Origin: Victivallis lenta
GTDB taxonomy: Bacteria; Verrucomicrobiota; Lentisphaeria; Victivallales; Victivallaceae
Direction of reading: 5' to 3'
Length of the DNA stretch: 64,000 nucleotides
NCBI RefSeq assembly: GCF_009695545.1
Contig: NZ_VUNS01000004.1
Coordinates: forward strand, 62,001 to 126,000
A program made the position numbers and the translations under genes. The notes beneath the pieces are model-generated. The model made no database searches. It was not told the DNA's origin and worked only from the letters and a program-made list of their open reading frames with translations. Below, one piece after another: positions 1-35,865 of the stretch (its first letter is position 1; each line of letters starts with the position of its first letter).

Positions 1-621
1 CGCGATCTCGTCCGCATGACGGTCGAGCAGCTCCGCCATCGGCGCAAATTCCGATTCGTCCCACGCATCGTCGAAACCGAGACGCGGCTGCGGCAGAAAC
101 ACATTCCGCTGAAGATAGCCGTGAAAGACCTGATGCATGCCGTCCGGGTCGCAGAGCGCCATCGCGCCTGCCGTATCGCCGTGATAGCCGCCGCGCAGCG
201 CGGCGAGCCGGCAGCGCCCCGGCTTCCCGGCGGCGAACTGGTACTGAACTGCCATCTTCGCCGCACACTCGACCGCAACGGAGCCGGAATCCGCGTAGAA
301 CACCTTATCCACTCCGGCCGGCGTATGTTTCACCAGCTCCGCCGCAAGCTCGATTGCGGGCTCGTGCGTGAACCCGGCAAACATGACCTGCGCGAACTTT
401 CCGGCCTGTTCGCGGATCGCCGCGACGATATCGGGGTGGTTGTGCCCGTGCGCCATGCACCACCAGCTTGAAATTCCGTCGATGAGCTCGAGCCCGTCGT
501 CGAGACGGATGTGCGTCCCCTTTGCCGCGACGGCGAGATTCACGGGCGGCGGCGCGGAGATCGACGCATACGGGTGCCAGAGGTGCTTGCGGTCGAAGGC
601 GAGCAGTTCTTCCCGGTTCAT
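1..621 (-). CDS. bioA: Adenosylmethionine-8-amino-7-oxononanoate aminotransferase, C-terminus cut by window edge
   Basis: PLP enzyme that transfers the amino group of SAM to 8-amino-7-oxononanoate to give diaminopelargonate, a cytoplasmic step of biotin synthesis. The 207 visible codons begin MNREELLAFDRKHLWHPYAS and contain the BioA-typical HLWHPY, GISSWW, MAHGHNHP and FYADSGSVAVE stretches plus the GGYHGDT motif that contacts the cofactor. The catalytic lysine lies beyond the window. The ATG at 619-621 overlaps the bioD stop as ATGA, so the two genes are translationally coupled. It is the last visible gene of the minus-strand biotin operon. Identification rests on motifs and on operon context, and I am confident of it. 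Confidence 0.93.
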   Translation of the reverse strand, partial: MNREELLAFDRKHLWHPYASISAPPPVNLAVAAKGTHIRLDDGLELIDGISSWWCMAHGHNHPDIVAAIREQAGKFAQVMFAGFTHEPAIELAAELVKHTPAGVDKVFYADSGSVAVECAAKMAVQYQFAAGKPGRCRLAALRGGYHGDTAGAMALCDPDGMHQVFHGYLQRNVFLPQPRLGFDDAWDESEFAPMAELLDRHADEIA

Positions 622-1304
622 TGCGCAGTCTCCCCGAAGATCGCCGAGAAGTCGACGTCCGGCAGCGGCTCTCCGACCTTCGGCAGCTCGACCAGGACTT
701 CCGGCATACGGTGCCGCTTCAGGTATTTGCGGATCATGCGCGGCGAATCCGCATCGATGGTCGGGTCAGCGGCCGGATAACGGTTGTAAACGGTTCCCGC
801 GACGACCATCCCGCGGCTCGCGGCCGCTTCGATCGACAGGATCGTATGGTTCAAACTGCCGAGCCGTCCGGAAGTCACGAGGATCAGCGGACAGCCGAGT
901 TCCGCCGCGAAATCGACGGTCAGCAGCTCCTCGGTCAGCGGAACAGCGAGGCCGCCCGCCCCTTCAAGCAGGACCACGTCGTAACGCTTCGACACCTCCG
1001 TCACCGCACGGCGGATCGCGTCAAGGTCGAGTTCGCGCTTTTCGAGCAGCGCCGCCAGATGCGGCGAAGCCGGAAAGCGGAAGATCTGCGGCGCAGTCAG
1101 CCCGGCTTTGTCCTCCGGAAACGGAGGCACTCCCATCATGGCCCGATGCTTGTCGAGATCCTCGGAGAATCCGTCGTTGCCGGTCTGGACAAGCTTCATG
1201 GTGATGACCCGCACGCCGCGCCGGTGGAGGTCGCGCGCCATCATGCCGACCGCGACGCTTTTGCCGATGTCGGTATCGATTCCGGAGATGAAATAGACGC
1301 TCAT
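618..1304 (-). CDS. bioD: Dethiobiotin synthetase
   Basis: ATP-dependent carboxylase that closes the ureido ring of dethiobiotin from diaminopelargonate and CO2. The 228-residue protein starts MSVYFISGIDTDIGKS; residues 8-16 form the P-loop GIDTDIGKS, slightly divergent from the usual GTDTxVGKT. Later family signatures are TMKLVQTG and LLEGAGGLAVPL. I prefer the ATG at 1304 over an in-frame ATG eight codons upstream, because 1304 places the P-loop at its usual position and leaves one base between it and the bioC stop. It overlaps bioA by four bases. Length is normal for the family. Confidence 0.94.
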   Translation of the reverse strand: MSVYFISGIDTDIGKSVAVGMMARDLHRRGVRVITMKLVQTGNDGFSEDLDKHRAMMGVPPFPEDKAGLTAPQIFRFPASPHLAALLEKRELDLDAIRRAVTEVSKRYDVVLLEGAGGLAVPLTEELLTVDFAAELGCPLILVTSGRLGSLNHTILSIEAAASRGMVVAGTVYNRYPAADPTIDADSPRMIRKYLKRHRMPEVLVELPKVGEPLPDVDFSAIFGETAQ

Positions 1305-1305
1305 G

Positions 1306-2070
1306 TCACTGCTTCTTTCCCGCCACAAGGGCGATCGGATGATAGGTCAGCGGTACTTTTCCGTTCGGAAGCCGGAAGTTCCCGGTATATGCTTCGCTGA
1401 ATGCCGCCAGCCGCCGGCGGCTCCACGGTTCGGCCGGGGAGACGGCGGTGACCCCGGTCGCCTTCAGGCTCTTCAATACGTCGAGCGGGGAATCGAACTC
1501 CGGGGTCAGCAGCTCTTCGCGCGCCGCGAGAACCTCGAAGCCGTTCGCTTCGAGCAGGACGTTCAGCTCCTTCGCGGTCCGGTAGGCGAGCCCGCCGCCG
1601 GTCAGGGCGGAAACCTCGCGCAGCGTCTCCGGCCCGAAGGTCGTGAAGGCGAGGTATCCGCCGCGGTTCAGCTTCTCCGCGATCCGCCCGAAGAGCCGGC
1701 CCGGATCGGCCGCCCACTGAAAAACCGCGTTCGAAAGAAAAAGGCCGGATTCCGGCAGGTCGATTTCCTCGATATCACCCGCCAGAAAATGCGCGTTCGA
1801 CCGGTGTTCGTGAAATTGCGCGCACTCCGGCACGAGGTCGATCAGGGTCAGCCGGGCGTAATCGAACCGCTCCGGGATGAGGTCGGTCAGGATTCCTGCG
1901 CCGCAGCCGAGTTCGGTGATTTCCGCGAACTGCCGTTCAAGCGTCGCCGAGGTAAAGAGATCGAGCAGCGTCCCGGCCATTTCACGCTGAACCGCGGCCG
2001 CGCCGTTATAGGTTGCCAGGCTGCGGCCGAACCGTTTCCGCACAGCGTTTTTATCGATTTCGCCCGGCAT
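1306..2070 (-). CDS. bioC: Malonyl-ACP O-methyltransferase
   Basis: SAM-dependent methyltransferase that methylates the free carboxyl of malonyl-ACP, so that fatty acid synthesis can build the pimeloyl chain. The 254-residue protein begins MPGEIDKNAVRKRFGRSLATYN, the usual BioC N-terminus (K-x-x-V-x-x-x-F-x-x-x-x-x-x-Y). SAM motif I is ELGCGAG at residues 53-59, and motif-II-like acidic and FLSNAVFQW segments follow. Its first 20 bases overlap the end of bioG. A longer in-frame reading extends to 2583 but runs through bioG in another frame and has no BioC character, so the ATG at 2070 is preferred. Confidence 0.93.
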   Translation of the reverse strand: MPGEIDKNAVRKRFGRSLATYNGAAAVQREMAGTLLDLFTSATLERQFAEITELGCGAGILTDLIPERFDYARLTLIDLVPECAQFHEHRSNAHFLAGDIEEIDLPESGLFLSNAVFQWAADPGRLFGRIAEKLNRGGYLAFTTFGPETLREVSALTGGGLAYRTAKELNVLLEANGFEVLAAREELLTPEFDSPLDVLKSLKATGVTAVSPAEPWSRRRLAAFSEAYTGNFRLPNGKVPLTYHPIALVAGKKQ

Positions 2071-2707
2071 CGATGAGCTCCTCGAACGAATGAATGTTGC
2101 GGAACGGGAAATGCGGCGCCTCCGGCTCTTCGATGATCGAAACGGCCTCTCCGCTCCAGAAACTCCGCTGCGCCGCCGCCGGAATGATCCGGTCGCGGCC
2201 GCCGATCCGCGCGGTTTTGAACACATTGGCCGGAACCGGCGCGGAGAGAATATGCTTTTCGAGCGCGGCAAGCTCCGCCTGCTGCGACTCCGGACTGCGC
2301 TGCGGCAACCGGAATTCCGCGGTTCCGGCGAGCCGGCGGTAGAAGCGGGCGCGGGCGCGTTCGTCGCCCCAGTTCGCAACGGTTCCCGAAAACACGGCCG
2401 GTTCGATGCCGTATTCCGGATCGACCGGGCGCAGCGTTCCGTTGAACGCGGCCGCGCTTTCAAAGCGGTACGGCGCGCCGGCGAGCAGCTCCGCCGCGAT
2501 CCGCACGCCGAGCGACCAGGCGGCGAGATGGAGTTCCGTATAAGGCGAAAGGTCCGGCAGCGCTTCCGGCGCAGTGTAGTCATGCACGGTCATGACGTTG
2601 AAACCGGGATTTTCCCAGCCCTCGAAAAGCGTGTCGTCCATGCTCCAGCCGTTGAAGAACAGCAGGAGTTTCCCGTTTTCGGCGCGATGGAGCAGACGGA
2701 CGGTCAC
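2051..2707 (-). CDS. bioG: Pimeloyl-ACP methyl ester esterase, BioG type
   Basis: Alpha/beta hydrolase that removes the BioC-added methyl ester from pimeloyl-ACP methyl ester, ending chain building. The 218-residue protein starts with GTG inside a GTGA overlap with the bioF stop, and reads TVRLLHRAENGKLLLFFNGW. The FNGWSMD stretch and the AWSLGV nucleophile elbow (serine near residue 65) are typical of the DUF452/BioG family rather than BioH. HFPF near the C-terminus probably carries the catalytic histidine. It lies between bioF and bioC, the arrangement known from BioG-using bacteria. The esterase role is inferred from family and position. Confidence 0.88.
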   Translation of the reverse strand: MTVRLLHRAENGKLLLFFNGWSMDDTLFEGWENPGFNVMTVHDYTAPEALPDLSPYTELHLAAWSLGVRIAAELLAGAPYRFESAAAFNGTLRPVDPEYGIEPAVFSGTVANWGDERARARFYRRLAGTAEFRLPQRSPESQQAELAALEKHILSAPVPANVFKTARIGGRDRIIPAAAQRSFWSGEAVSIIEEPEAPHFPFRNIHSFEELIDAGRNR

Positions 2708-3858
2708 ACCAGCCTCCGCAGTTCGGCGACGGACTCCTCCGGCAGCGCCGCGGAGAGCGAGAAGCGCAGCCGCGCCCCGTTCGGCGGCACGGTCGGCGGA
2801 CGGATCGCAAAGACAAGAACGCCGTGCCGCTGGAAAAGCTCCGCCCTTTCGACCGACTCGCGGTCGTTCCCGATCAGGAACGGCACGATCTGCGAATCGC
2901 CCGGAACGGTCTTCTCTCCGAAGAGCCGGCGCAGTTCGCACCCCATCCGGCGCAGTTTCGCGCGCTCGGCATCCATTTTCGCACAGCGGTCGAGCACGAA
3001 GCAGCTCCAGTTCAGCACTGCCGGGGGCAGCCCGGTCGTGAAGATCAGCGGGCGCATGTGATTGACGAGATACGTGCGCACCTCGGGCTCCATGATCGCG
3101 TAGGCTCCGGTCGAACCGAAGGCTTTGCCGAAGGTCCCGATCAGGATATCGATGTCATCCGCAACGCCGAGCTCGGCGGAGAGGCCGGTCCCGTTCGGAC
3201 CGCGGACGCCGACCGAATGGGCCTCGTCCACGACGAGGATGCAGTCGTATTTCTTCTTGAGCCCGACGAGCTTTTTCAGGTCCGCCGCATCGCCGTCCAT
3301 GCTGAAGACCGATTCGGTCACGAGGAACACCCGGCGGTATGCGGCGCGCCTGTCGGCCAGGATCTTCTCAAGCTGTTCGCAGTCGAGGTGGCGGTAGCGG
3401 CGGAACTCCGCATCCGCAAGACGCATCCCGTCGATGATGCTCGCGTGGTTCAGCTTGTCCGAAAGAATCAGGTCCCTGTCGGACGACAGAGCGGGCAGGA
3501 TGCCGATATTCGCGTGGTAGCCGCTGTTGAAAACAAGTGCCGCCCGGCGGTTGTAAAGGGCGCTGAGCTTCTCCTCGAGCCGGACATAAGCCGGCGTGTT
3601 GCCGGTCAGCAGCCGGCTCGACGCGCTCGACAGAGCGAGTTCCGGCGTGGCGGCATCGGGATACTGCGCGTAGAATTCGCGCCGCAGCTCCGCATCGGCC
3701 GCGATGCCCATATAATCGTTGCTTGAGAAATTCAGGAATTCCCGGCCGTCATAGCGGCAGAGCCCGTGCCCTTCCGGCGCGATTTCGCGCAGAATCCGCA
3801 ACCGGCCGTTTTCCTCAAGCGCCGCCGCATCGGCGGCGAGTTCTTCCCGGAATCCCAT
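2704..3858 (-). CDS. bioF: 8-amino-7-oxononanoate synthase
   Basis: PLP-dependent alpha-oxoamine synthase condensing pimeloyl-ACP (or -CoA) with L-alanine, releasing CO2. The 384-residue length is standard. Visible motifs are NFSSNDYMG near residues 43-51, NSGYHANIG at 111-119, the VVDEAHSVG aspartate/histidine pair near 209-217 that holds the pyridine ring, and GTFGKAFGSTGAY with the Schiff-base lysine at about 245. Two bases separate its ATG from the bioB stop and its own stop overlaps the bioG GTG, so B-F-G are tightly coupled. Confidence 0.95.
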   Translation of the reverse strand: MGFREELAADAAALEENGRLRILREIAPEGHGLCRYDGREFLNFSSNDYMGIAADAELRREFYAQYPDAATPELALSSASSRLLTGNTPAYVRLEEKLSALYNRRAALVFNSGYHANIGILPALSSDRDLILSDKLNHASIIDGMRLADAEFRRYRHLDCEQLEKILADRRAAYRRVFLVTESVFSMDGDAADLKKLVGLKKKYDCILVVDEAHSVGVRGPNGTGLSAELGVADDIDILIGTFGKAFGSTGAYAIMEPEVRTYLVNHMRPLIFTTGLPPAVLNWSCFVLDRCAKMDAERAKLRRMGCELRRLFGEKTVPGDSQIVPFLIGNDRESVERAELFQRHGVLVFAIRPPTVPPNGARLRFSLSAALPEESVAELRRLV

Positions 3859-3860
3859 TT

Positions 3861-4841
3861 CTAAAACCTGTTCAGCTGTTCGATGAATTTCACGTCGTCT
3901 TCGACGCTGCGGCCGCGGGTGGTCAGATATCCGCCGGTGATCATGCTGTTGAGCCCGGAGAGCATCAGGAGCCCCTGGAAATCCTTCATGACCGTTTCGC
4001 GGCCCGCCGCGAACTTGATCATCCCGGCCGGATTCACGAGCCGGAAAATCGCGAATGCCTTCGCAACATCGGCCGGCGCCATGATTTCACGCCCTTCGAG
4101 CGGCGTCCCCTTGATCGGCAGCAGAACGTTGAGCGGAGTCCCCTCCACATTGAGGTCGCGGATCACAAACGCCATGTCGACGCGGTCCTCCCAGTTCTCA
4201 CCGAGGCCGAAAATGCCGCCGGTGCAGTTGGTGACGCCGAACTCCTGCAGATATTTGATCGTTGCAATCTTGTCTTCGATGGTGTGGGTGTCCGCAATCA
4301 GCTCGGCGTAACGCTTCGGGCTGGTCTGCAGGTTCATATTGTAGCGCCAGGCGTGGTGTTCGGCCAGCAGCTTCGCGGTTTCACGCGAAAGGATGCCGAT
4401 CGACACGCAGATTTTGAGTTCCGGCAGCTCTTTGTGCAGCAGATCGAGCGTGTCGAGGATCTGCCGGAACTCGGGCGTGACCGTTTTGTAGCCGTAGCCG
4501 CTGGTGACGTAACCGAAAGCGCGGACTCCGGCATCATACGCCTTCCGCGCGGCTTCGAGCACCTCCTCCGCCGGGAGGAGATCATAGGTTTCGATCCCGG
4601 TATTGTGATGCCGGCTCTGGGCGCAGAACCGGCAGTTCTGGGCGCAGACGCCGGATTTTGCGTTCAGAATCGAGCACGGCGCGATTTCGCGCGCGAATTT
4701 TTTCCGCACCTTGTTGGCGAGCGATACGAGGTCGAGGATATCCTCCCCGTCGATTTTTTCCGCGATTTCAAGCGCTTCTTCGCGGGTCAGGACTCCGCCG
4801 TCGAGCACCTTGTAGGCGTTTTCAATGATCGGATTCAGCAC
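3861..4841 (-). CDS. bioB: Biotin synthase
   Basis: Radical-SAM enzyme inserting sulfur into dethiobiotin, the final step of the pathway. The 326-residue protein carries the radical-SAM cysteines as CAQNCRFC (C66, C70, C73), followed by SRHHNTGIETY. The Y-x-M-N-L-x-T-S-P and GGIFGLGE segments are also characteristic. The start codon is GTG at 4841, with AAAGGA about 8 bases upstream; no better start is visible. It is the first gene of the six-gene operon. I could not find a strong promoter in the minus direction in the 150 bases upstream. A TATATT hexamer lies about 40 bases before the start, but no good -35 is spaced correctly. Confidence 0.95.
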   Translation of the reverse strand: MLNPIIENAYKVLDGGVLTREEALEIAEKIDGEDILDLVSLANKVRKKFAREIAPCSILNAKSGVCAQNCRFCAQSRHHNTGIETYDLLPAEEVLEAARKAYDAGVRAFGYVTSGYGYKTVTPEFRQILDTLDLLHKELPELKICVSIGILSRETAKLLAEHHAWRYNMNLQTSPKRYAELIADTHTIEDKIATIKYLQEFGVTNCTGGIFGLGENWEDRVDMAFVIRDLNVEGTPLNVLLPIKGTPLEGREIMAPADVAKAFAIFRLVNPAGMIKFAAGRETVMKDFQGLLMLSGLNSMITGGYLTTRGRSVEDDVKFIEQLNRF

Positions 4842-4992: not shown

Positions 4993-6156
4993 ATGGATAA
5001 GGTCAGAATCGGCATCATCGGCGTGGGCAATATGGGCACGTCGCACATCACGAGCGTTCAGAACATTCCGCAGGCGGAGCTTGCAGCGATCTGCGACCGG
5101 GACAGGGCGCGCGCGGATGAGAAGGTGAAGCTGGCTCCGGCGGGCTGCAGGGTGTTCTACTCGGTCGACGACCTTCTGGACTCCGGCACGGTCGACGCGG
5201 TCATCATTTCGGTGCCGCACTACGACCACACGCCGATTGCGATCCAGGCGTTCGAAAAGGGAATCCACGTGCTCTGCGAGAAGCCGGTCGCGGTGACCAA
5301 GAGCCGGGCGCAGAAGATGATTGACGCGCACGCGAAGCACCCCGAACTCCGTTTCGCCCTCATGTTCAACCAGCGCACCCGCCAGGCGCACAGGAAGATC
5401 AAGCAGATGATCGAAAACGGCGAATTCGGCAAAATCGTCCGGGTCAACTGGACCGTCACCGACTGGTTCCGTTCCCAGAGCTATTACGACAGCGGTTCTT
5501 GGCGCGCGACCTGGGCCGGAGAGGGCGGCGGCGTGCTGCTGAACCAGTGTCCGCACCACCTCGACCTCTTCCAGTGGTTCTTCGGGCTGCCGGTCAAGGT
5601 CCGCAGCACGGTTTCGATCGGTAAATACCACGATATCGAGGTTGAGGACGATGTGAACACCTATTGCGAATTCGCCGACGGTTCGACCGGCAACTTCATC
5701 ACCTCGACCGGAGAATTCCCCGGCACCAACCGGCTCGAAATCTCCGGCACCCGCGGCCGCATGGTCTTCGAGGACGGCGTGATCAAGTTCAAGCGCACCG
5801 AAGTCGACGTGAACGAGTTCTGCCGGAGCACTCCGGAATCGTTCCCGAGCATGGACACCTGGAACATCGTCGTTCCGACCCGCAAGGACACCGGCCATGA
5901 GCATCAGGATGTGATTGAAGCGTTCGTCAAGGCGGTTCTCGATCCGAAGGCGAAACTGGTGGCTGAGGGTGAAGAGGGCATCCGCTCGGTCGAATTCGGC
6001 AATGCGATGCTCTACTCCGGCCTGAAGGGCGAGGAGGTTTCGATCCCGATGGATACCGTGAAATTCGACGCGATGCTCGACGATCTGATCAAAAATTCGA
6101 AATTTCAGAAGAAAGAGGTCAAGGAAGCCATCGTCGATATGGGGAACTCGTTCTGA
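4993..6156 (+). CDS. Gfo/Idh/MocA-family oxidoreductase
   Basis: NAD(P)-dependent sugar or inositol dehydrogenase family. The 387-residue protein opens with a Rossmann fold GIIGVGNMGTSH, then the family CEKPVAVT motif near residue 97, and the substrate/catalytic GGGVLLNQCPHHLDLFQWFFG segment near 180-200, where H-x-x-D is the usual catalytic pair. An AGGAGG ribosome binding site precedes the ATG. It is cytoplasmic, with no signal peptide. It overlaps the next gene by one base (TGATG). Substrate is not recognisable from sequence. A second, more distant paralogue sits at 51328-52386. Confidence 0.9.
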   Translation: MDKVRIGIIGVGNMGTSHITSVQNIPQAELAAICDRDRARADEKVKLAPAGCRVFYSVDDLLDSGTVDAVIISVPHYDHTPIAIQAFEKGIHVLCEKPVAVTKSRAQKMIDAHAKHPELRFALMFNQRTRQAHRKIKQMIENGEFGKIVRVNWTVTDWFRSQSYYDSGSWRATWAGEGGGVLLNQCPHHLDLFQWFFGLPVKVRSTVSIGKYHDIEVEDDVNTYCEFADGSTGNFITSTGEFPGTNRLEISGTRGRMVFEDGVIKFKRTEVDVNEFCRSTPESFPSMDTWNIVVPTRKDTGHEHQDVIEAFVKAVLDPKAKLVAEGEEGIRSVEFGNAMLYSGLKGEEVSIPMDTVKFDAMLDDLIKNSKFQKKEVKEAIVDMGNSF

Positions 6157-6641
6157 TGCGGCGCGCGGAGCGGGAGGTTGCCGGCGTGGCCGCCCTGGCC
6201 GGAATTCTCGACCGGGCGGCATATGCAACTCTCTCGTTCCTCGACAGCGGAGCTCCCGCCGCCGTCCCGGTCTCGTTCGGATACCGGGTCGAGGGCGGGA
6301 TTTTTGTCTTCTACATCCACTCCGCCGGCGAAGGGCATAAGATGGAATGCCTGCAAAACGATCCGCGGGCCGTGCTGTCCGCCGTGGGCGACAACCGCAT
6401 TGTCCTGGCCGAACCGGCCTGCCGTTCGACCTGTTTCTACGAAAGTGTCATTGCGTCGGGCGAGGTTGAATTCGTAACTGCGCCCGAAGAGAAGCGCGCA
6501 GCCCTCGACTGCATCATGCATCACTGCGGCGGCGCCGGAACCTACGATTATCCCGAGGCCATGCTTGAACGCACTGCCATCCTGCGGCTCTCCGCCCGCA
6601 GCATCTCCGGGAAGAGCAACACAGCGGAAATGAAACGCTGA
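6156..6641 (+). CDS. NimA-like pyridoxamine 5'-phosphate oxidase-fold flavin protein
   Basis: The 161-residue protein has the split-barrel pattern of the PNPOx/nitroimidazole-reductase family: AYATLSFLDSGAPAAVPVSFGYRVEGGIFVFYIHSAGEGHKMECL, then LAEPACRSTCFYESVIASGEVEFV. The H-S-A-x-x-G-x-K-x-x-x-L run matches the flavin-binding loop of NimA-like proteins. It is probably an FMN-binding oxidoreductase. Its ATG overlaps the stop of the upstream oxidoreductase, so both are cotranscribed. Its substrate is unknown. The 287/288-bp repeat array starts about 25 bases after its stop. Confidence 0.8.
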   Translation: MRRAEREVAGVAALAGILDRAAYATLSFLDSGAPAAVPVSFGYRVEGGIFVFYIHSAGEGHKMECLQNDPRAVLSAVGDNRIVLAEPACRSTCFYESVIASGEVEFVTAPEEKRAALDCIMHHCGGAGTYDYPEAMLERTAILRLSARSISGKSNTAEMKR

Positions 6642-6665
6642 AGGCCGGAGCTGAGGCGGCGCACG

Positions 6666-7473
6666 CCTGCACACCCGTCAAGGCGGCGGAGCCGCCGCCG
6701 CCGCCGGTACCTTGCCGGTCGGGGGGTCCGGGGGCGACGCGCCCCGGCCGCCGGAGGCGATCTGCGGGCGGAACGACCGGCTCACAAACCGAATCGAAGA
6801 TTCGGACGGGGAGCACGCACGGTCTGCTGCGCGAACGCGCAGTAAGACCGCGCCCCGGAAGGGGCGCGCCTCCCCCAAGTCATGACATTGACCGGGCGCA
6901 GTTTAACGTGGTGAACTGTTCCCGGCCGCTGTTGCGTGAAGTGGGCCAATCCGCCTGCACACCCGTCAAGGCGGCGGAGCCGCCGCCGGCGCCGGCACCT
7001 TGCCGGTCGGGGGTCCGGGGGCGACGCGCCCCGGCCGCAGGAGGCGATCTGCGGGCGGAACGACCGGCTCACAAACCGAATCGAAGATTCGGACGGGGAG
7101 CACGCACGGTCTGCTGCGCGAACGCGCAGTAAGACCGCGCCCCGGAAGGGGCGCGCATCCCCCAAGTCATGACATTGACCGGGCGCAGTTTAACGTGGTG
7201 AGCTGTTCCCGGCCGCTGTTGCGTGAAGTGGGCCAATCCGCCTGCACACCCGTCAAGGCGGCGGAGCCGCCGCCGGCGCCGGCACCTTGCCGGTCGGGAG
7301 TCCGGGGGCGACGCGCCCCGGCCGCCGGAGGCGATCTGCGGGCGGAACGACCGGCTCACAAACCGAATCGAAGATTCGGACGGGGAGCACGCACGGTCTG
7401 CTGCGCGAACGCGCAGAAAGACCGCGCCCCGGAAGAGGCGCGCCTCCCCCAGCCATGACATTGACCGGGCGCA
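6666..7473. repeat. Tandem array, 2.8 copies of a 287/288-bp multi-hairpin unit
   Basis: Unit 1 spans 6666-6953 (288 bp), unit 2 6954-7240 (287 bp), and partial unit 3 7241-7473. Copies are nearly identical. Each unit holds a row of short perfect hairpins. In unit 2: GGCGGC-GGA-GCCGCC (6970-6984), CCGGCA-CCT-TGCCGG (6992-7006), GGGGCG-ACG-CGCCCC (7018-7032), CCGAATC-GAA-GATTCGG (7076-7092), a longer arm GGTCT...AGACC around CTGCGC-GAAC-GCGCAG (7108-7136), and GCGCCCC-GGAA-GGGGCGC with a GNRA loop (7137-7154). Unit 1 has T at 6708 where units 2 and 3 have C, turning a C-G pair into a U-G wobble and keeping the stem. The one-base length difference breaks any reading frame across units. No coding function is supported. 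Confidence 0.9.
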
Positions 7474-7596: not shown

Positions 7597-8505
7597 TTAT
7601 CCGGCTGCGTCTTCCTGCCGCGGCTCCTGTTTCTCCGTCCAGGCGAGGAAAATTTCCTCGAGCGGCAGCGGCTCCAATTCGAACGCGAGACCCGGAATCC
7701 GGCTCAATTCCGCGCCGGTCTCCTCTTCATCTCCCCGGATGGTCAGGAGCAGCTCCGGACCGCAGCTCTTCCGCCGCAGCACATCGAGTTCCGGCAACTG
7801 CGGTTCCATACCGGCCGGAATTCGCAGCAGCCGGGTCCGTTCCAGAAGCGCCGCCGCGTCTTCCTCCGCCACGAGCCGGCCGTTCTTCAGGATGCCGACC
7901 CGGTCCACAATTCCGGCAGCCTCCGGAATCAGGTGGGTGGAGAGGAACACCGTACAACCGAACCCGGTCAGCGAATCGACCAGCATCTCCATGAAATTCC
8001 GGCGCGACGCCGTGTCGAGCCCGAGGCACGGATCGTCGAGAATCAGCAGCTCCGGTTCCCGGCAAAGCGCGGCGGCGAGAACGCTCTTCGCATACATGCC
8101 GCGCGAAAAGCTTCCGAGCTTCCGGTCCAGCGGCAGCCCGAAGCCGCGGGTGAGCCTGATGAATGCATCCTCGTTCCAGTTCGAGTAGAACGGCTTCAGA
8201 AAATCATGAAGTTCCGCGAGCGTCATCCAGTCGTAAACCTTCATCAGTTCGGCGACATAGGCAAAACGTTCCCTGACCCGCACTCCGTCACGGACCGGGT
8301 CGAGGCCGAATACCCGGACCGCGCCGGCGTCCGGCTCCATCTGCCCGGCGGCCATTTTGATCGCCGTCGTCTTGCCCTCGCCGTTTTCACCGAGAAGCGC
8401 ATAAACATTGCCGCGGAATACGGTCAGGTCGAACCCCTTCAGCACTCTCCGGCTGCCGTAGGACTTGGCGACACCGGAAAATTCGATTACTTTATCCCTG
8501 CTCAT
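7597..8505 (-). CDS. ABC transporter ATP-binding protein (YtrB-like)
   Basis: Cytoplasmic ATPase partner of the adjacent permease. The 302-residue protein has Walker A GENGEGKTT near residues 39-47, a Q-loop region around YVAELMKVYDW, a degenerate signature FSRGMYAKS in place of LSGGQ, Walker B LLILDDPCLGLD, and the H-loop STHLIPE. In Walker B the usual catalytic glutamate is aspartate (LDDP rather than LDEP). The ATG at 8505 has AAAGGG upstream; an in-frame GTG at 8511, overlapping the permease stop, is possible. It is the last gene of a GntR-permease-ATPase operon. The substrate is unknown; related operons respond to cell-envelope stress. Confidence 0.88.
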   Translation of the reverse strand: MSRDKVIEFSGVAKSYGSRRVLKGFDLTVFRGNVYALLGENGEGKTTAIKMAAGQMEPDAGAVRVFGLDPVRDGVRVRERFAYVAELMKVYDWMTLAELHDFLKPFYSNWNEDAFIRLTRGFGLPLDRKLGSFSRGMYAKSVLAAALCREPELLILDDPCLGLDTASRRNFMEMLVDSLTGFGCTVFLSTHLIPEAAGIVDRVGILKNGRLVAEEDAAALLERTRLLRIPAGMEPQLPELDVLRRKSCGPELLLTIRGDEEETGAELSRIPGLAFELEPLPLEEIFLAWTEKQEPRQEDAAG

Positions 8506-8507
8506 GA

Positions 8508-10085
8508 TCACCGCCCTTTCATCGAACCGGCCCGCTCCGGAACCGGATAACTCAAAACCGTCATTCCTTTTTTGCCGACGAACCGGAAGCCGTTCCGCGT
8601 CCGCTCATACCGGAACGGCAGCCCGATATCAAGTGTTTCGGGCAAAGCGCCGGTCCGGTACAGCTCCAGCTTCAGCTTCAATGCTTCGGCGTACAACTTG
8701 AACCACTTCCGCACCTCGCGCTCCCGCAGAACCAGGCCGTATAAGCGCGATGCCTCAAGCCGGGCGGGTCGCCTCAGATGTGCAGCCAGCTCATCGCCGT
8801 TCATTGCCCGAATCCGGGCAATATCGCGGAATGCGGCCGTTTCGCGCCTCAGAAAGCGGGCTTCGGCCCCTTTACGGCCGGGCGCCATGAGAAAGCTGTC
8901 CCGCTTTCCGAAAAGAGGCCGGACCTCCTGCCATGCATCGCGGATACTCACGGCATACCGATGTGAAAAATCGTACTTCTGCGCCCGTTCGAGCTGCCCG
9001 ATCAGCGCCTCGAGCGTTTTGCCGTACTTCTCGAGGCTGCCGCCGTCGTACAGAATCCGGCCGAGCGCGACATAACCGCAAAACACGCCCGCATTGACAT
9101 CCCGCCGCAGGTTTTCAATATCGTTCGCCCGGTAGTCCCGCTGAAGCTGCTCCGCCACAGCACCGGTCACAAACTTTGAAATCTGTTTCCTCGTCCGGCG
9201 GCTTTCGACCGGCACGCAGTAAAACGGTTCCTCGTCCGGCGAATATCCGAACTGCGCCAGATAGTCGTCGAGATCGGCTCGGGTGAATGAATCGAACTCC
9301 CGGAAAAGTCGCTTCGGCTCCACCAGAATAATTCCGGCCTCCCGCGCTTCCTGCTTCGCAACGGCGAGGGAAACCGATCCCGCCAGCCACGCGCCGCCCC
9401 ATTCGATCCACGGAACCAGAACGATCGCCAGACTCCAGAATATCAGCGCCCGCCGCACCGGCCGGTTCAGCACCCGCTTCCTCCACAACACATATCCGCC
9501 CGCCGCAAGCAGCACGGTCAGTTGAACCGCCGGATACGCGAGTACCCGGAACTCATTGCTGCCGAAACTCTCCACCGCCGCGATCGCCGGCAGCTGCGCC
9601 GGAACCAGAACCAGCATTCCGATGATCGCCCCCATCAGGAGACCGAGCCCGTTCTGCACCGGGGCGAGAAACACGAAAAACGCGGCGATGGCCAGATTCT
9701 CAAGCAGCACGATCGGCAAAACCTGCAGGAAAGCCATCGTAATGCCCTCCTCCAGCAGCAGCACGCCGGTCAGGGAAAAAAGCGAGACCGCCGGCAGCAG
9801 AATCAACACCCGCAGCAGCAGCCGGAGCAGGAAAAGCTTCGAAGCGGGGTACGGCAGCCCGAGCAGGAACGGCCACTCGCCGCGGTCCGCCGCCAGCGAA
9901 CCGAACAGGGCCGGAACCAGCAGAGCCGGAACCGCCACAATCACGATGCCGACCAACCGCATGCTTTTCTCTCCCGGCCACAGCCCGGCCGCGGCAAACA
10001 GCAGAACCAGAATGCCGCAGGCCGCAAGCAGCGACCAGCGAATCCGTTTCCACTCAAACAGGATCATTGCCATCGTCGAATCCAT
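8508..10085 (-). CDS. ABC transporter permease with large extracytoplasmic insertion
   Basis: The 525-residue membrane protein has about six hydrophobic segments in its first half (for example near residues 15-35, 45-65, 90-115, 120-150 and 175-200) and one near 215-235. About 290 mostly polar residues follow, beginning IEWGGAWLAGSVSLAVAKQEAREAG. Its ATG follows the GntR stop by three bases, with GGAGAGGTGA as binding site, and it overlaps or abuts the ATPase gene. The long soluble C-terminal half has no motif I recognise. The permease call rests on topology and on the ATPase partner. Confidence 0.8.
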   Translation of the reverse strand: MDSTMAMILFEWKRIRWSLLAACGILVLLFAAAGLWPGEKSMRLVGIVIVAVPALLVPALFGSLAADRGEWPFLLGLPYPASKLFLLRLLLRVLILLPAVSLFSLTGVLLLEEGITMAFLQVLPIVLLENLAIAAFFVFLAPVQNGLGLLMGAIIGMLVLVPAQLPAIAAVESFGSNEFRVLAYPAVQLTVLLAAGGYVLWRKRVLNRPVRRALIFWSLAIVLVPWIEWGGAWLAGSVSLAVAKQEAREAGIILVEPKRLFREFDSFTRADLDDYLAQFGYSPDEEPFYCVPVESRRTRKQISKFVTGAVAEQLQRDYRANDIENLRRDVNAGVFCGYVALGRILYDGGSLEKYGKTLEALIGQLERAQKYDFSHRYAVSIRDAWQEVRPLFGKRDSFLMAPGRKGAEARFLRRETAAFRDIARIRAMNGDELAAHLRRPARLEASRLYGLVLREREVRKWFKLYAEALKLKLELYRTGALPETLDIGLPFRYERTRNGFRFVGKKGMTVLSYPVPERAGSMKGR

Positions 10086-13124: not shown

Positions 13125-13621
13125 AGCACGGCCTCCTCCTCCTTCGCCAGCAGCAGCCCGGTCAGCGGCGAAACCGCAAAGCGGCGCTGCAGCTTCCGAA
13201 ACCGCAGAATGAATTCGCGCGAAGCATTCGCACTGCCGTCCGAAAAAAAACGGAACACTTCAACCGTGCCGTTTTCGCCGGTTTCGGCGTTCAGCATTTC
13301 GGTGTCGAGCTCAAAATCGGCGGGCAGCTCCCAGACAAACGGCGGCCGCCCGTCTCCGGAAAAAGTGTTCTCCGCCGGCAATTCCGGCTCTTCCGCCGTG
13401 AACCGGCGCGCCGCCGGATCGAAGGCGACGACGCGGTCGGAACCGTTCTCCATCGCCGCATAACGCACCCGCGCGCAGTACGCCTCGAAACCGAGCGAGG
13501 CGTTCCGGAGCTTCTGCGCCGGGGATTCGCCGCGGAAGGTCGACACCGCAAGCGTGGTGGTGATCGCGATGATCGCAATCACCACCATCAGCTCAAGCAG
13601 CGTAAACCTCCGGCACACCAT
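13121..13621 (-). CDS. gspH: Type II secretion minor pseudopilin GspH
   Basis: The 166-residue minor pseudopilin starts MVCRR followed by [21 protein letters not shown], with +5 glutamate and arginine at -1. The globular part contains the RVVAFDPAARRF strand pair and the late FRFFSDGSA segment typical of GspH/FimT proteins. Its ATG shares one base with the gspG stop (TAATG), and its stop overlaps the gspI start. An upstream in-frame extension runs into gspG in another frame and is not used. Confidence 0.87.
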   Translation of the reverse strand: MVCRRFTLLELMVVIAIIAITTTLAVSTFRGESPAQKLRNASLGFEAYCARVRYAAMENGSDRVVAFDPAARRFTAEEPELPAENTFSGDGRPPFVWELPADFELDTEMLNAETGENGTVEVFRFFSDGSANASREFILRFRKLQRRFAVSPLTGLLLAKEEEAVL

Positions 13622-14049
13622 TATTTTTCCACGTAATTCGTGATGTCGGCGTTTTCTCCGGTGCCGCCCGGCTGGCCGTCGGCGCCGTAGCTGACCAGAT
13701 CGAAGTCGCCGTGTTCGCCGGGGCTGGTGTAAACGTAATCGTTGCCCCACGGGTCCTTCGGAACCGCCGGCTTGATGTACGGCCCGTCCCACTTCTCGTT
13801 CTGATCGACATTCTCGACCAGCGCGCGCAGGCCGGTCGCCGTATCCGGGTAGCTGCCGATGTCGAGCTTGTAGCCGGTCAGCGCGTCTTCGAGCAGTTTG
13901 ACCTGCGTCGTCGCCGCGCCGACGTTGGCCTTCTTCACGTAGTTCAGGTAGATCGGCGTGGCGATCGAAGCGAGCGTGACCAGAATGATGATCACGACCA
14001 CAACTTCGATCAGGGTGAAACGGCTTCTCTTGAAACAATGCTTTCTCAT
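13621..14049 (-). CDS. gspG: Type II secretion major pseudopilin GspG
   Basis: Main subunit of the T2SS pseudopilus. The 142-residue protein has a leader MRKHCFKRSR followed by FTLIEVVVVIIILVTLASIA; +5 glutamate is present, while -1 is arginine instead of the expected glycine. The C-terminal half has the family hallmark: DPWGNDYVYTSPGEHGDFDL and the SYGADGQPGGTGENADITN calcium-site loop. This is the clearest T2SS marker in the operon and separates it from a type IV pilus system. Confidence 0.96.
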   Translation of the reverse strand: MRKHCFKRSRFTLIEVVVVIIILVTLASIATPIYLNYVKKANVGAATTQVKLLEDALTGYKLDIGSYPDTATGLRALVENVDQNEKWDGPYIKPAVPKDPWGNDYVYTSPGEHGDFDLVSYGADGQPGGTGENADITNYVEK

Positions 14050-15260
14050 ATCGCAGGTCCTCCTTGACTGATTGAGTTGATTTCCATCATGGCGACAAAG
14101 ATCGAAACGACCACGACCAGCACGATGAGGGCGAGAAAAATGATCACCGCCGGCTCGAACAAACTGAGCAGCCGCTTGATTTTAAGTTTCGTATCGTTCT
14201 CGAGATGCGACGCGATCTTCGAGAGCATCTCGCCGACCGTGCCGGACTCCTCGCCGACCCGCAGCATCGGCACCATGCCGGCCGGAATGAACCGGTTCCC
14301 GGCCAGCGCGGCCGAGAGTTTGTCCCCTCCCTTGAGCTTGCGGTCGATCTCCGCGAATCCGGCCGACACGGTCGGGTTCGAGATGATCTTCCCCGAAATG
14401 CGGACGGTGCGGATGATCTCGACATGGTTCGCAATCAGAATCGCAAGCGTGCGGATGTATTTGCACATCTCGAGATCGACCACGATCCGCCCGAAAAGCG
14501 GCAGCTTCAGGACGAGCCGCGACAGCGCGATTTTGAGCTCCCGCTCGCCCATGATCTTCTTCAGCAGCAGCCAGCCGCCGATGCAGCAGAGCGGAATCAG
14601 CCACCAGGCCCAGGAGAAGAAAGAGCTCATCGCAAGCAGGAACTCCATCGACGGCGGCATCTCGCGCCCCATATCGATGAAAATCTTCGCAAAACGCGGC
14701 ACGAACACCGTGAAAAGCACGACCGTGACGATCATCGTGACCGTCAGGATCGCCAGCGGATAGATCGAGCTCGACACGATGAAGTCCTTCAGCTCCTTGC
14801 TCTCCCCCATGAACTTGTGCAGCTCGTTCACGACCTCCGGCAGACAGCCGGTCTCCTCGCCGGACTCGATCAGGTTCGCATAGTAACCCGGAAAGAGCGT
14901 CCCGTGGCTTCGGGCCAGCTCCGAAAATTTCTTGCCCTCGTGCAGCCCCTGGCGCAGCGCGTTCACGAAATCGCGCTGTTCCGCTTCGGTCGAACTGTCC
15001 GCAATGATCGCCAGCGCCCGTTCGAGCGGGATGTGCGAATCGAGCAGCGGCGCGAGCTGCCGCGTGAATTCGTAGGTGTTCACCTTGCTGCGGCGCAACG
15101 TGAACCTGCCGCCGGAAACGGTCGCCTCCCCGCAGTAACGCACGGGAACGATCTTCCGGCTGCGCAGTTTGCTTTGCGCCTCCGCGATGCTGTCGGCTTC
15201 GATCAGGATCTCGTGCGGCGCTTCGCCTTTCGCGGCAGCAAGGTATTTATAGAGTCCCAT
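14046..15260 (-). CDS. gspF: Type II secretion inner-membrane platform protein GspF
   Basis: Polytopic platform protein linking the ATPase to the pseudopilus. The 404 residues contain two repeated GspF domains: the first with FTRQLAPLLDSHIPLERALAII and GYYANLIESGEETGCLPEVV, the second with EMCKYIRTLAILIANHVEIIRTV and GMVPMLRVGEESGTVGEML. Membrane spans lie near 170-190, 215-240 and 375-395. It overlaps gspG by four bases and is three bases from gspE. Confidence 0.95.
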   Translation of the reverse strand: MGLYKYLAAAKGEAPHEILIEADSIAEAQSKLRSRKIVPVRYCGEATVSGGRFTLRRSKVNTYEFTRQLAPLLDSHIPLERALAIIADSSTEAEQRDFVNALRQGLHEGKKFSELARSHGTLFPGYYANLIESGEETGCLPEVVNELHKFMGESKELKDFIVSSSIYPLAILTVTMIVTVVLFTVFVPRFAKIFIDMGREMPPSMEFLLAMSSFFSWAWWLIPLCCIGGWLLLKKIMGERELKIALSRLVLKLPLFGRIVVDLEMCKYIRTLAILIANHVEIIRTVRISGKIISNPTVSAGFAEIDRKLKGGDKLSAALAGNRFIPAGMVPMLRVGEESGTVGEMLSKIASHLENDTKLKIKRLLSLFEPAVIIFLALIVLVVVVSIFVAMMEINSISQGGPAI

Positions 15261-15263
15261 TGT

Positions 15264-16862
15264 CTACAACTCCGCCGTGGAACGGTTCAGCTCTTCCGGG
15301 GTGGTAATGCCGGCCCGGACCTTCGCCAGGCCGTCCTCCTGCAGCGTCACCATGCCCTCCCTGACCGCAATCGCTTCCAGCTCCGAACTCGACGCGCTGC
15401 GGTTGATCGCCGCGCGCAGTTCGTCGCTGACCGTCAGCAGCTCGAAAATGCCGCAGCGCCCCTTGTAGCCGGAGCCGTTGCATCTGCGGCACCTGTTCCC
15501 GGCCGCATCGGTCGTCTTCCCGTGGCAGACCGGGCAGATTTTGCGGACCAGCCGCTGCGAAAGCACGCCGAACAGCGCCGACGAAACCAGGAAGTTCTCG
15601 ACGCCCATATCGAGCAGGCGGGTCACCGCGCCGACCGCGTCGTTCGTGTGCAGCGTCGAAAGCACGAGGTGGCCGGTCAGCGCCGCGTTGATCGCGATGT
15701 CGGCGGTTTCGCGGTCGCGGATCTCGCCGACCAGAATGATGTCGGGGTCCTGCCGCACAATGCTGCGCAGTCCGGTCGCAAAGGTCACGCCGATCTTCGA
15801 ATTGACCTGCATCTGGCAGAGCCCGGCCATTTTGTATTCGACCGGGTCCTCGACCGTGATGATCTTCTTGCGATTGTCGTTCAGCTGGTTGATCACGCTG
15901 TACAGCGTGGTCGTCTTGCCGCTGCCGGTCGGACCGACCACGAGAATGATGCCGTGCGGAATCTGGATCAGCTTTCTGAACTGCGCGAGATGGGTCGGCG
16001 ACATGCCGAGGATGCCGAGGTCGAATGAAATCGCCTCCTGGTTCAGCAGCCGCAGCACGATGCTTTCGCCGGTCAGGATCGGAATCGTCGAGATGCGCAT
16101 GTCGAGCTCCTGCCGGCCGAGCTGGATATTCGTGCGGCCGTCCTGCGGCAACCGGCTCTCGGCGATGTTGAGCCCGCCGAGCAGCTTGATGCGCGACGCG
16201 ATGGCCGGAAACTGCGAAAGCGGCGTGCTGATGATCTCGGTCAGAACACCGTCCACCCGGCATCGGACCGCGACGTTCTCTTCGCCGGGCTCGATGTGGA
16301 TGTCCGACGCGCCGAGCTCAATCGCGCGCGTGAAAATGTCGTTCACAAGCCGGACGATCCGCGCCTCGCCCGCCATCGAACGGAGCGTGTTCTCATCCTC
16401 GAGCTCCATCACCTCGTTTTCTTCTTCAAGGCTCTGGAGCTTGCTCGAAAGCCGCTCGAGGAAGGTACGGCGGACGAAACGGAACTTCGCGCCGGTCTTC
16501 CAGGTGCGGCGGACGAGGAACGTCAGCTGCTCGAGGTCGTACGGATCGACGACGAGAAACGTGATCGCATCGGCGTCCCACTCGGCCGGCAGGCAGCCGT
16601 TCGCGTTGAAAAAGTCGTACGGCGCATCCGGAAACGGCTCCGGCGTCCGGAACTCCTCCTCCTCGACCGGCTCCGTCCCGTAGGCGGCGGCATAGAGCGC
16701 GACCAGCTGTGACTCGGAGAGCGCGCCGGACTGGATCAACGCGCGGTCGGCCGCCCTGACCTCCTCGCGGGAGGGGGAAGCCGGGTAGTCCGGACTCTTC
16801 TCCGCCAGCATCCCGCGCAGCCGTTTCCGGGCGGCGGCGAAATCGTATCCGTCCGCACTCAT
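15264..16862 (-). CDS. gspE: Type II secretion ATPase GspE
   Basis: Cytoplasmic hexameric ATPase powering pseudopilus assembly. The 532 residues include the N-terminal GspL-binding domain, SDIHIEP near 186-192, Walker A GPTGSGKTT at 310-318, an Asp box around EDPVEYKMAGLCQMQVN, Walker B DIILVGEIRD at 374-383 and the His box LSTLHTNDA. The four-cysteine zinc motif specific to GspE/PilB is intact (C443, C446, C458, C461). It overlaps gspD by four bases. Confidence 0.96.
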   Translation of the reverse strand: MSADGYDFAAARKRLRGMLAEKSPDYPASPSREEVRAADRALIQSGALSESQLVALYAAAYGTEPVEEEEFRTPEPFPDAPYDFFNANGCLPAEWDADAITFLVVDPYDLEQLTFLVRRTWKTGAKFRFVRRTFLERLSSKLQSLEEENEVMELEDENTLRSMAGEARIVRLVNDIFTRAIELGASDIHIEPGEENVAVRCRVDGVLTEIISTPLSQFPAIASRIKLLGGLNIAESRLPQDGRTNIQLGRQELDMRISTIPILTGESIVLRLLNQEAISFDLGILGMSPTHLAQFRKLIQIPHGIILVVGPTGSGKTTTLYSVINQLNDNRKKIITVEDPVEYKMAGLCQMQVNSKIGVTFATGLRSIVRQDPDIILVGEIRDRETADIAINAALTGHLVLSTLHTNDAVGAVTRLLDMGVENFLVSSALFGVLSQRLVRKICPVCHGKTTDAAGNRCRRCNGSGYKGRCGIFELLTVSDELRAAINRSASSSELEAIAVREGMVTLQEDGLAKVRAGITTPEELNRSTAEL

Positions 16863-19209: not shown

Positions 19210-20085
19210 TCACCGTCCGGGCGGCGGGCCGCCGGGCCCGCCGCCTGCATTGCCGCCGCGGTTGCCGCCCGGATTCCGGTTCTGGTTCTGATTCCGCACG
19301 GTATCGCGCATCATCCGCATCATCTGGAAGTTCTGCATCATCTGCATCTGCTGCATCTGCTGCATCTGCTGGAAGAAGTTGCCGCGCCGGTTGTTGTTCG
19401 TGCCGGTCGAAGCCTTCGCCTGGTTTTTCGACGGCTCCTGCAGCTCAAGTTCCATTTTGTCGCTGCCGCGGGTCAGCACGGCGCCGGTACGGGTGATCTC
19501 GGTCAGCGTGTAACCGTTGGCCAGCGTCTCCCCGATCCGCACATACTGCCTGAGCGCGCCGATCTGCGTGGAGGAAGCATTGTTGCCGCTGCCGCCGGCG
19601 CCGGCGCGGTTCCAGCTGCCGAAACGGTTCCGGGCCGCCCCCGGCGCGGCGCCCAGATTCCCGGGAGGCATCGGGGGCCCGCCCGGGAAACCGCCGAAGC
19701 CGCCCGGCCCCCCCATCATGCCGGGGAAGTTCCGGTTGTTCGACGCGCTCTTCTGCAGAATAATCGCCCCTTTGCAGTCGCCGATCTCGAAGGTCCCGAC
19801 CAGAGAAAGTTCGACACGATTCGAGCGGCCGCGGCCGAACACCGCGTTCGGACAGCGGTCCGGGTTGAAAATATTGTTGTCCACAATCGTCGCCAGAAGC
19901 GAACCGACCGACTCCGGCGGAGCCGTTTTCACCGTATTCCCCGGCGTTGCGGCCGTGCTCTTTTTCGGGCTGCGCGCCTTCACCGTCAACGTCTCTTCGG
20001 CTTTGCCGCCCGTGAAACGCCCGACCACGACGGCCAGCAGCCAGACCGCCAGCAGGAGATTGACCAGTATGAGGACGATTCTCAT
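19210..20085 (-). CDS. gspC: GspC-like inner-membrane protein with Met/Gln/Gly-rich tail
   Basis: The 291 residues start MRIVLILVNLLLAVWLLAVVVGRF, a single N-terminal membrane helix as in GspC. A short linker leads to VGSLLATIVDNNIFNPDR, matching the start of the HR domain that binds secretin, and to a beta domain with VELSLVGTFEIGDCKGAIIL. A Gly/Pro/Asn-rich loop (about 130-190) and a C-terminal tail with FFQQMQQMQQMQMMQNFQMM and NQNQNRNPGGNRGG are unusual. Start chosen at the ATGA overlap with the upstream gene. The GspC call relies on topology, motif and position between M and D. Confidence 0.75.
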   Translation of the reverse strand: MRIVLILVNLLLAVWLLAVVVGRFTGGKAEETLTVKARSPKKSTAATPGNTVKTAPPESVGSLLATIVDNNIFNPDRCPNAVFGRGRSNRVELSLVGTFEIGDCKGAIILQKSASNNRNFPGMMGGPGGFGGFPGGPPMPPGNLGAAPGAARNRFGSWNRAGAGGSGNNASSTQIGALRQYVRIGETLANGYTLTEITRTGAVLTRGSDKMELELQEPSKNQAKASTGTNNNRRGNFFQQMQQMQQMQMMQNFQMMRMMRDTVRNQNQNRNPGGNRGGNAGGGPGGPPPGR

Positions 20086-34359: not shown

Positions 34360-35865
34360 ATGAGACGGATGGAGGAAATCGATTTCTTTTTCTTTTGGAG
34401 AAACCTGCGGAAACATTATCTGTGGATCGTGCTGGCGGGCGTCCTCTGCGGCGTCTCCGCCTATCTGGTCTGCCGTTACCTGGTTCCTCCCACCTATAAG
34501 GCCGAAATCTCTCTTTTCGCCTGGGGCGGCAATCCGAAATATGAAAACGAGAACCATCTGCTGCCGTCCGCCGGACCGGCGGCAGACGATGCCGACGACG
34601 CCCGGAAACCGCGCGAACTGACCCAGCAGGATATCATATTCGGCAATCTGCTCGTGAACGACTACAAGGAACTGCTCGGCAGCCGCAACGTGAGCAATGA
34701 AGCGCGCCGGCGGCTCAATCTGGAATATCCGGAGCTGGCCGAGGTGCCGTACCGGTTCGAGGCGCTGGTTCTGAACAAGACGCGGTTCATCAAGGTCTCC
34801 GTCTTCAGCCAGTCGACGGTCAAAGCCGAGAAAGCGGCGCAGGTCATCGCCGAGGTATTTTCCGAGTCCGTCGAAAAGTTCATGAAGATCAAGCGGGTGC
34901 AGGTCGTGGATTCCCCGCAGGTGCTCGGCAAGGTGAGTCCGAAAACGGCGCGCGTCACCGTGATCGCGTTCCTGCTCGGCGCCGGTTTCGTCTTCGGGCT
35001 CTTCTGTCTGTACGATTTCTTCCGGTACACGCTGCGCAACTCGGATATCGTCAAGGCGGAGCTCGACCTGCCGACCATCGGCATGATCGGAACCTGCTCC
35101 GAAAAGCAGAATGCGAATCTCGCCTGCCTGACGGAAAAAAGCGACAGCTACTGCTTCAATCATATCCTCGAAGATTTCCTGCTGCTGCAGACCAATCTGC
35201 AATACTCCCTGCCGAAAAAGAACAGGGCGCAGATTCTGGTCCTCACCAGCGCGTTTCCGAAGGACGGCAAAAGCTTCACCTCGCTGAATCTGGCCCTGAC
35301 GCTGTGCGGCAACTCGAAGCGCGTGCTGCTGATCAACTGCGATCTGCGCAAGGCGGAGTACGACTATCTGGATCTGCCGCGCCAGCCGGGACTCGTGAAC
35401 TTCCTGCTGGGTGAAAAGAAGATCGACGAGGTCATCCACAAGAACGTGCTCGGGACCCCGCTCTCGGTGATCCGCAGCGGCCCGATTCCGCCGAACCCGA
35501 CGCGGCTGCTTGAAATCTTCCAGACCTCCGGCATTCTGGATGAGCTGGCGACCCGGTACGACTATATCATTCTCGACTCGCCGCCCTGCATGAACATGGC
35601 CGATCCGCTGCTGCTGAGCAAGCTGGCCGACGGAACGATTCTCGTGGTCAACAGCAGGCGCACACCGGTCGATGCGGTCCGGCAGGTCGTCGACCAGCTG
35701 CGCAAATTCGATGTGAATATCCTCGGCGTCGTCCTCAACCGTTATTCGGCCCAGACCGCCGGATACGGGTATGGTTACGGATACGGCTACGGCTACGGTT
35801 ACGGATACGGCGAAAGCAAGAGTTCCCGGAAAGAAAAAGCGAAAGAGAAGAAGGAAGAGGCCTGA
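34360..35865 (+). CDS. Exopolysaccharide chain-length regulator/BY-type tyrosine kinase
   Basis: The 501-residue fused Wzz-kinase has membrane helices near 20-42 and 199-221 flanking a periplasmic chain-length domain. A cytoplasmic bacterial tyrosine kinase domain follows: Walker A SAFPKDGKS at 297-305 (divergent from the usual S-x-x-P-G-E-G-K-S), Walker A' VLLINCDLRK at 322-331 and Walker B YIILDSPP near 402. The tail is a run of alternating Tyr-Gly (about 469-484, eight tyrosines), the expected autophosphorylation cluster, then a lysine/glutamate end. GGAGGAG lies 9 bases before the ATG; a TTG one codon earlier is less likely. It overlaps the phosphatase gene by one base. Confidence 0.93.
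   Translation: MRRMEEIDFFFFWRNLRKHYLWIVLAGVLCGVSAYLVCRYLVPPTYKAEISLFAWGGNPKYENENHLLPSAGPAADDADDARKPRELTQQDIIFGNLLVNDYKELLGSRNVSNEARRRLNLEYPELAEVPYRFEALVLNKTRFIKVSVFSQSTVKAEKAAQVIAEVFSESVEKFMKIKRVQVVDSPQVLGKVSPKTARVTVIAFLLGAGFVFGLFCLYDFFRYTLRNSDIVKAELDLPTIGMIGTCSEKQNANLACLTEKSDSYCFNHILEDFLLLQTNLQYSLPKKNRAQILVLTSAFPKDGKSFTSLNLALTLCGNSKRVLLINCDLRKAEYDYLDLPRQPGLVNFLLGEKKIDEVIHKNVLGTPLSVIRSGPIPPNPTRLLEIFQTSGILDELATRYDYIILDSPPCMNMADPLLLSKLADGTILVVNSRRTPVDAVRQVVDQLRKFDVNILGVVLNRYSAQTAGYGYGYGYGYGYGYGYGESKSSRKEKAKEKKEEA

Follow-up and report, generated by a model that had tools for sequence, protein, structure and literature searches.

A tandem array of an interspersed, structured non-coding repeat in Victivallis lenta, built on a head found in several families of the order Victivallales

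Introduction

Structured repeats between genes are a common feature of bacterial genomes. Among the described types, REPs favour co-directional and convergent gaps between genes (PMC3733652), and BIMEs bind gyrase (PMC2817692). ERIC and BOX elements are interspersed intergenic repeats with a common fold, confined to one lineage and likely co-transcribed with their neighbours (PMC2267715, PMC3049150). A stable fold directly after stop codons is, furthermore, a general tendency of mRNA folding (PMC7518266), and hairpins can arise and be kept up through template switching during replication (PMC8794818).

Here we describe an array of hairpin-rich units in a stretch of 64,000 nucleotides (hereafter the window), i.e. 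positions 62001-126000 of contig C4 of the 5.5 Mb Victivallis lenta genome. Neither the window nor nine element loci gave a match to Rfam 15 above the gathering threshold, the weak matches being sub-threshold. No description of the family was found in the searchable literature, and the one paper retrieved on Victivallis repeats deals with reverse-complement triplets and mentions V. vadensis but makes no reference to the elements described here. The statement in the initial annotation that no known element has such a layout consequently holds for Rfam and the searchable literature, but the kind itself is well known, and the best reading is an undescribed family within it, i.e. among the interspersed structured intergenic repeats.

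Results

The array and its neighbours

By running TRF on the window, we found one tandem array at 6664-7473 (period 287, 2.8 copies, 97% matches), in agreement with the near-identical tandem non-coding units of 287/288 bp that had been annotated at 6666-7473. The three copies lie head-to-tail, are 97-98% alike and start at 6665, 6953 and 7240 (boundaries in the list are one base lower). The array sits between two converging genes, with its start some 25 bp past the stop codon of the upstream one.

6156-6641, plus strand: pyridoxamine 5'-phosphate oxidase family gene, upstream (Pfam PF12900)
about 6664-6951, plus strand: unit 1 of the array, 288 bp (TRF, BLAST, copy comparison)
about 6952-7238, plus strand: unit 2 of the array, 287 bp (TRF, BLAST, copy comparison)
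about 7239-7473, plus strand: unit 3 of the array, shortened, about 234 bp (TRF, BLAST, copy comparison)
7163-7252, plus strand: linker between X cores 2 and 3 (sequence)
7597-8511, minus strand: ABC transporter ATPase gene, downstream, converging on the array (Pfam PF00005)

Between copies 1 and 2 there are five substitutions and a length difference of one base. Three details read from the letters at the outset were borne out: T6708, a C in the other units, still pairs, as U-G, within the first GC hairpin, an A for G in unit 3 disrupts a C-G pair, and the one-base length difference shifts the frame between units, so that no common frame exists. Elsewhere in the window, TRF reported two short tandem repeats, at 19308-19371 (GCATCATCT-like) and 35760-35811 (CGGATA/CGGCTA-like), and inspection by eye suggested biotin synthesis genes at 618-4841 and a type II secretion/pseudopilin cluster at 13621-16862.

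Fold of the unit

The unit has a minimum free energy of -162 kcal/mol, compared with -137 +/- 5.5 for dinucleotide shuffles (z -4.5, none of 200 shuffles being as good), while the opposite strand gives a z of -2.4. Six copies of one variant and a hand-drawn structure served to build a covariance model, R1; the other variants were aligned to it because MAFFT on all variants shifted the GCTC/GAGC stem by one base. R1 matches all three copies in full, over what we term the X core.

6699-6875 (C4:68699-68875), plus strand: X core, copy 1 (R1 176/176, E 2.4e-33)
6987-7162 (C4:68987-69162), plus strand: X core, copy 2 (R1 176/176, E 4.9e-35; this copy is in the R1 seed)
7274-7449 (C4:69274-69449), plus strand: X core, copy 3 (R1 176/176, E 2.3e-34)
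6970-6984, plus strand: hairpin A of copy 2, GGCGGC-GGA-GCCGCC, preceding the head (sequence, alignment)
6987-7050 (C4:68987-69050), plus strand: order-wide head of copy 2 (model R3, covariation)
6992-7006, 7015-7034 and 7037-7045, plus strand: head hairpins B, C and D of copy 2 (model R3)
7050-7106, plus strand: branched helix E of copy 2 (R1 structure, covariation)
7108-7154, plus strand: hairpin F and end hairpin of copy 2 (R1 structure, covariation)

In copy 2, helix E encloses an inner stem GCTC/GAGC and the hairpin CCGAATC-GAA-GATTCGG. Hairpin F is GGTCT..AGACC with an inner CTGCGC..GCGCAG, and the end hairpin is GCGCCCC-GGAA-GGGGCGC. Variation among copies of hairpin A is mostly confined to the loop. 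The unit had been described as a row of simple hairpins; stable hairpins are indeed present, but the comparison between species places some of those stems within the branched helix E.

Copies in V. lenta and a second cassette

The unit is a dispersed cassette family that recurs far outside the window locus, with 42 places in its own genome by BLAST of the unit and 36 by R1. Copy number is probably underestimated, because several V. lenta contigs end in or near repeats (C49:1, the end of C20, C7:450, C14:137, C18:132 and the end of C3). An odd run of G and C was also seen on C20 near 110800.

At other loci of this genome, X alternates via a common linker with a second hairpin cassette of about 180 bp, Y, in orders such as X-Y-X-Y-X-Y on C8, X-X-Y-Y-Y-Y on C16 and X-X-Y-Y on C20.

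V. lenta C8:160019-161690: Y cassette locus
V. lenta C16:29523-31108: Y cassette locus
locus L005, 1790-1990: Y cassette locus

The cassettes of a mixed array share one orientation, with X first, often partial, and Y last, adjoining in most cases the stop codon of the opposing gene. Consensus energies of -81 and -69, each strand being taken by its own best fold, give a hint that Y might fold in the sense of that opposing gene. The window array consists of X cassettes only, without Y, and, as judged by eye, its linker at 7163-7252 resembles the one joining X and Y elsewhere. The tandem layout looks like a product of recombination, as the copies are about 98% alike and other loci differ from the window in copy number and cassette order.

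A second species and covariation

In Victivallis vadensis DSM 14823, R1 finds many full-length places, with E down to 5e-21. This genome holds some 60 or more near-complete copies with other letters and the same fold, and R2, a model from both species, gives at least 71 candidates, most of which span the whole model. No match to R1 was found in seven other genomes of the genus.

The intergenic homologues with covarying stems that the initial annotation named as support were thus found. In an alignment of 41 elements, about 20 each from V. lenta and V. vadensis, 97.6% of the pair cells are standard pairs. Two-sided changes occur in 32 of the 50 pairs and 300 cells, against 19.3 pairs and 106 cells in shuffles and at most 12 pairs in slid controls, and the covariation score reaches 0.382, where shuffling gives 0.147 and sliding no more than 0.085; since the alignment was fitted to the structure, these counts lean toward it, and one row is a contig-end artefact. 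RNAalifold, given the same alignment and no structure, recovers much the same helices and adds a closing GGG/CCC pairing. The swaps in helix E, i.e. UGCGG/CCGCA, UGUAC/GUACA and UGUGC/GCACA, are clear and independent of the fitting. Whole stems are also swapped among copies with unchanged neighbours, e.g. CCGAATC/GATTCGG, GCAAAAT/ATTTTGC and CCTGATT/AATCAGG. Because of these homologues and the order-wide head described below, we conclude that the fold is maintained and that the shape matters while the letters change.

The order-wide head

Weak matches elsewhere that covered hairpins B, C and D only prompted a model, R3, of the 63-nt head, which consists of these three hairpins followed by GGCGAAA or a near variant. 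Among 388 genomes of the phylum, R3 matches 32, mostly with several copies each. All lie within Victivallales and no head was found outside this order in the set; in family f4 the E-values are mostly weak. For 55 heads from other genera, 98.8% of the cells pair, with a score of 0.266 (0.065 when shuffled) and two-sided change in 10 of 15 pairs (4.3 in shuffles), where some of the genomes also supplied R3 seeds. Within the GTDB species set, from which records near V. lenta were possibly omitted, V. vadensis and one Lentisphaeria MAG alone contain an exact head pattern; viral contigs gave no match to the pattern.

A third genome of the genus (G006) shows weak head-like repeats after stop codons, including a repeat, rich in hairpins and at least about 210 bp long, with a B-C-D-like start directly past stops (L230 and L234, 1480-1760). 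In two further genomes (G002 and G003), hairpin B (CCGGCACCTTGCCGG) lies just upstream of prepilin-like coding sequences, apparently in the leader, at many of the loci L034, L035, L040, L041, L043, L044, L046, L049, L052 and L053.

Position relative to genes

Gene context in V. lenta was counted in a sample of 794 kb that was picked partly around copies, with genes called by a home-made hexamer score, so the counts are approximate. After removal of two short intragenic matches, 20 clusters remained, of which 10 are in convergent, seven in co-directional and none in divergent gaps, the other three being at contig ends. Gaps of at least 250 bp in the same sample, element loci included, comprise 18 convergent, 26 divergent and 60 co-directional ones. 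The divergent setting thereby accounts for 0 of 17 classifiable clusters and 26 of 104 long gaps (Fisher p 0.02).

In 15 of 17 V. lenta cases (read from the table of contexts), X follows a gene and shares its sense, mostly within 60 bp of the stop, and the same applies to 15 of 17 cases in V. vadensis, where the gaps are larger. For both species combined (30 of 34), the p-value is 6e-6 under random orientation. Heads in other genera, with contexts assigned by a simple ORF rule, are mostly beside a gene end (14 ++, 12 +-, 11 -- and 2 -+).

Mobility and palindromic forms

Copies occupy unrelated places. Four congeneric genomes have an ortholog of the upstream gene with no element behind it; in two of these a short hairpin takes its place, which in one of them has a clear U-run. 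The right neighbours appear different in those genomes, and the site therefore does not count as an exact empty one; the comparison suggests that the element behind the upstream gene may be a lineage-specific gain.

Heads in V. vadensis also occur as inverted pairs ending palindromic elements of about 680-960 bp, with the ends GGGATTTCG...CGAAATCCC. The loci sampled hold 28 non-redundant elements of this form (e.g. L137, L138, L139 and L143). A few of them lie inside locus-specific inverted repeats, of 34 bp at L169 and 18 bp at L161, possibly a locus-specific hairpin such as a terminator. Inspection by eye of 24 palindromic elements for which both edges were located showed no consistent target-site duplication.

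No match to Y1_Tnp (RAYT-type) was found in V. vadensis, where copies are most numerous; a RAYT was therefore rejected as the mobiliser. A recurrent transposase-like ORF was not found near the V. vadensis heads; large ORF clusters at these loci appear to be frames running through the repeats themselves, and the one member tested of an eight-locus ORF family is DUF1559/prepilin-like. V. lenta has one borderline RAYT-like Y1 gene (L075 1294-1839) and one IS200-like gene (L074 1390-1854), and no X copies were seen beside either.

Discussion

What the fold may do

The family is dispersed, multi-copy and intergenic, lies just behind genes with the same orientation as the gene it follows, and keeps its pairs by two-sided changes. 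With moderate confidence, we read the array as an interspersed, non-coding, structured Victivallis repeat on an order-wide head, present here in three tandem copies, with a REP/BIME-like role at the 3' end of the transcript from the upstream gene. As placement and fold suggest, the element would be carried on that 3' end, and the compact fold would shield the transcript end and separate the converging genes; a folded transcript end between them is probable. Tandem copies would have come from unequal recombination, and the family may have spread as a non-autonomous element, mobilised by a putative enzyme. A more elaborate version, which we offer tentatively, makes the head, with hairpins B, C, D and its conserved joints, a motif for a putative protein. 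X and Y would then be paired cassettes folding on two converging transcripts, and the arrays two-way gene boundaries spread by a putative hairpin-recognising mechanism.

The evidence shows that pairing is kept; the acting molecule may be RNA or DNA, because G-U pairs are almost missing and a protein reading folded DNA would likewise demand strict pairing. G-U makes up 1.4% of the pair cells of X in the 41 elements, the heads show no one-sided change in 782 cells, and in MFE folds the G-U share is 3.6% for X, 7.5% for nine V. lenta tRNAs and 9.4% for shuffled X. Folding energy is uninformative as a strand test for X, as both strands fold equally well (means of -97.0 in sense and -97.7 in antisense). 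The excess of G-U over A-C cells in X, 24 to 5, is a weak hint of one-strand use. Of the three natures initially considered, i.e. structured RNA, protein-binding DNA or recombination product, a maintained fold and a recombinational look of the layout have thereby gained ground, with either RNA or DNA as the possible carrier of the fold.

It is possible, if rather unlikely, that the fold acts as single-stranded or cruciform DNA, the head being a hairpin site for a putative transposase or a nucleoid or topoisomerase protein, as in BIMEs, and the 3' placement a tolerated insertion. The near-strict Watson-Crick pairing would suit such a role, as would the V. vadensis heads that end palindromic elements as inverted pairs, a few of them within the locus-specific inverted repeats at L169 and L161. 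However, the lack of Y1/RAYT in V. vadensis and of a recurrent transposase-like ORF near heads speaks against it, as does, weakly, the G-U excess, and the orientation bias is unexpected for a symmetric DNA function.

We judge it unlikely that the family is a parasitic repeat without host function, whose hairpins are made and kept perfect by replication template switching, with one arm copied onto the other, and whose copy number shifts by recombination. The swapping of whole stems between otherwise unchanged neighbours and the scarcity of one-sided intermediates fit this mechanism, which has been described for RNA hairpins (PMC8794818), and the pneumococcal BOX, RUP and SPRITE repeats were judged likely parasitic (PMC3049150). 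Template switching nevertheless suits local hairpins better than the long-range helix E, and it leaves the conserved joints and hairpin order across many genera unexplained.

That the array is a series of classical intrinsic terminators is very improbable, despite its 3' position, the converging genes and the GC-rich hairpins. An intrinsic terminator scan found no hairpin with a U-tract on the sense strand of the array. The array has a single terminator-like match, which falls on the minus strand, the region has 2 matches where shuffles give 1.2, and other convergent gaps in V. lenta do, by eye, have a hairpin and U-run. A repeated peptide, finally, can practically be dismissed: open frames cross the array, but the frame shift between units and the lack of a Pfam match among the array ORFs tested rule out a coding explanation, and the two-sided base-pair changes also speak against it.

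The preferred reading, a repeat that would fold at transcript ends, concerns a family in which stems clearly covary on both sides across genera, polarity toward gene ends is fixed and G-U pairs are almost missing. Two species supply many complete copies and about 30 genomes supply heads, which makes the family a good test case for RNA selection versus DNA hairpin function versus template switching. Transcript ends can be measured in V. vadensis, a type strain that is in culture.

Comparison with known systems

Like REPs and BIMEs, the elements are intergenic, multi-copy and palindromic, form mosaic arrays and lie mainly in co-directional and convergent gaps (PMC3733652), and by analogy the family may work like them. 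REPs are, however, palindromes of 20-40 bp, whereas a 63-nt head and a 176-nt branched core are found here. Membership in the REPs is ruled out, since no REP tag (GTAG or CGTC) is conserved, by eye, in the aligned copies or heads, and the genome-encoded RAYT flanked by repeats that accompanies REPs is missing from V. vadensis.

The palindromic form in V. vadensis, about 700 bp with long inverted ends, resembles MITEs, but form X of the window is not palindromic overall, and neither a related transposase nor evident target duplications were found. With ERIC and BOX the family shares being dispersed, multi-copy, intergenic, non-coding, of a common fold and taxonomically narrow. It differs in that a relation in sequence is not established, the head is common to several families of the order, and X and Y cassettes alternate with fixed polarity. 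Ribosome termination structures likewise place a stable fold right after stop codons; those reflect a tendency of mRNA, whereas the fold described here belongs to a repeat family.
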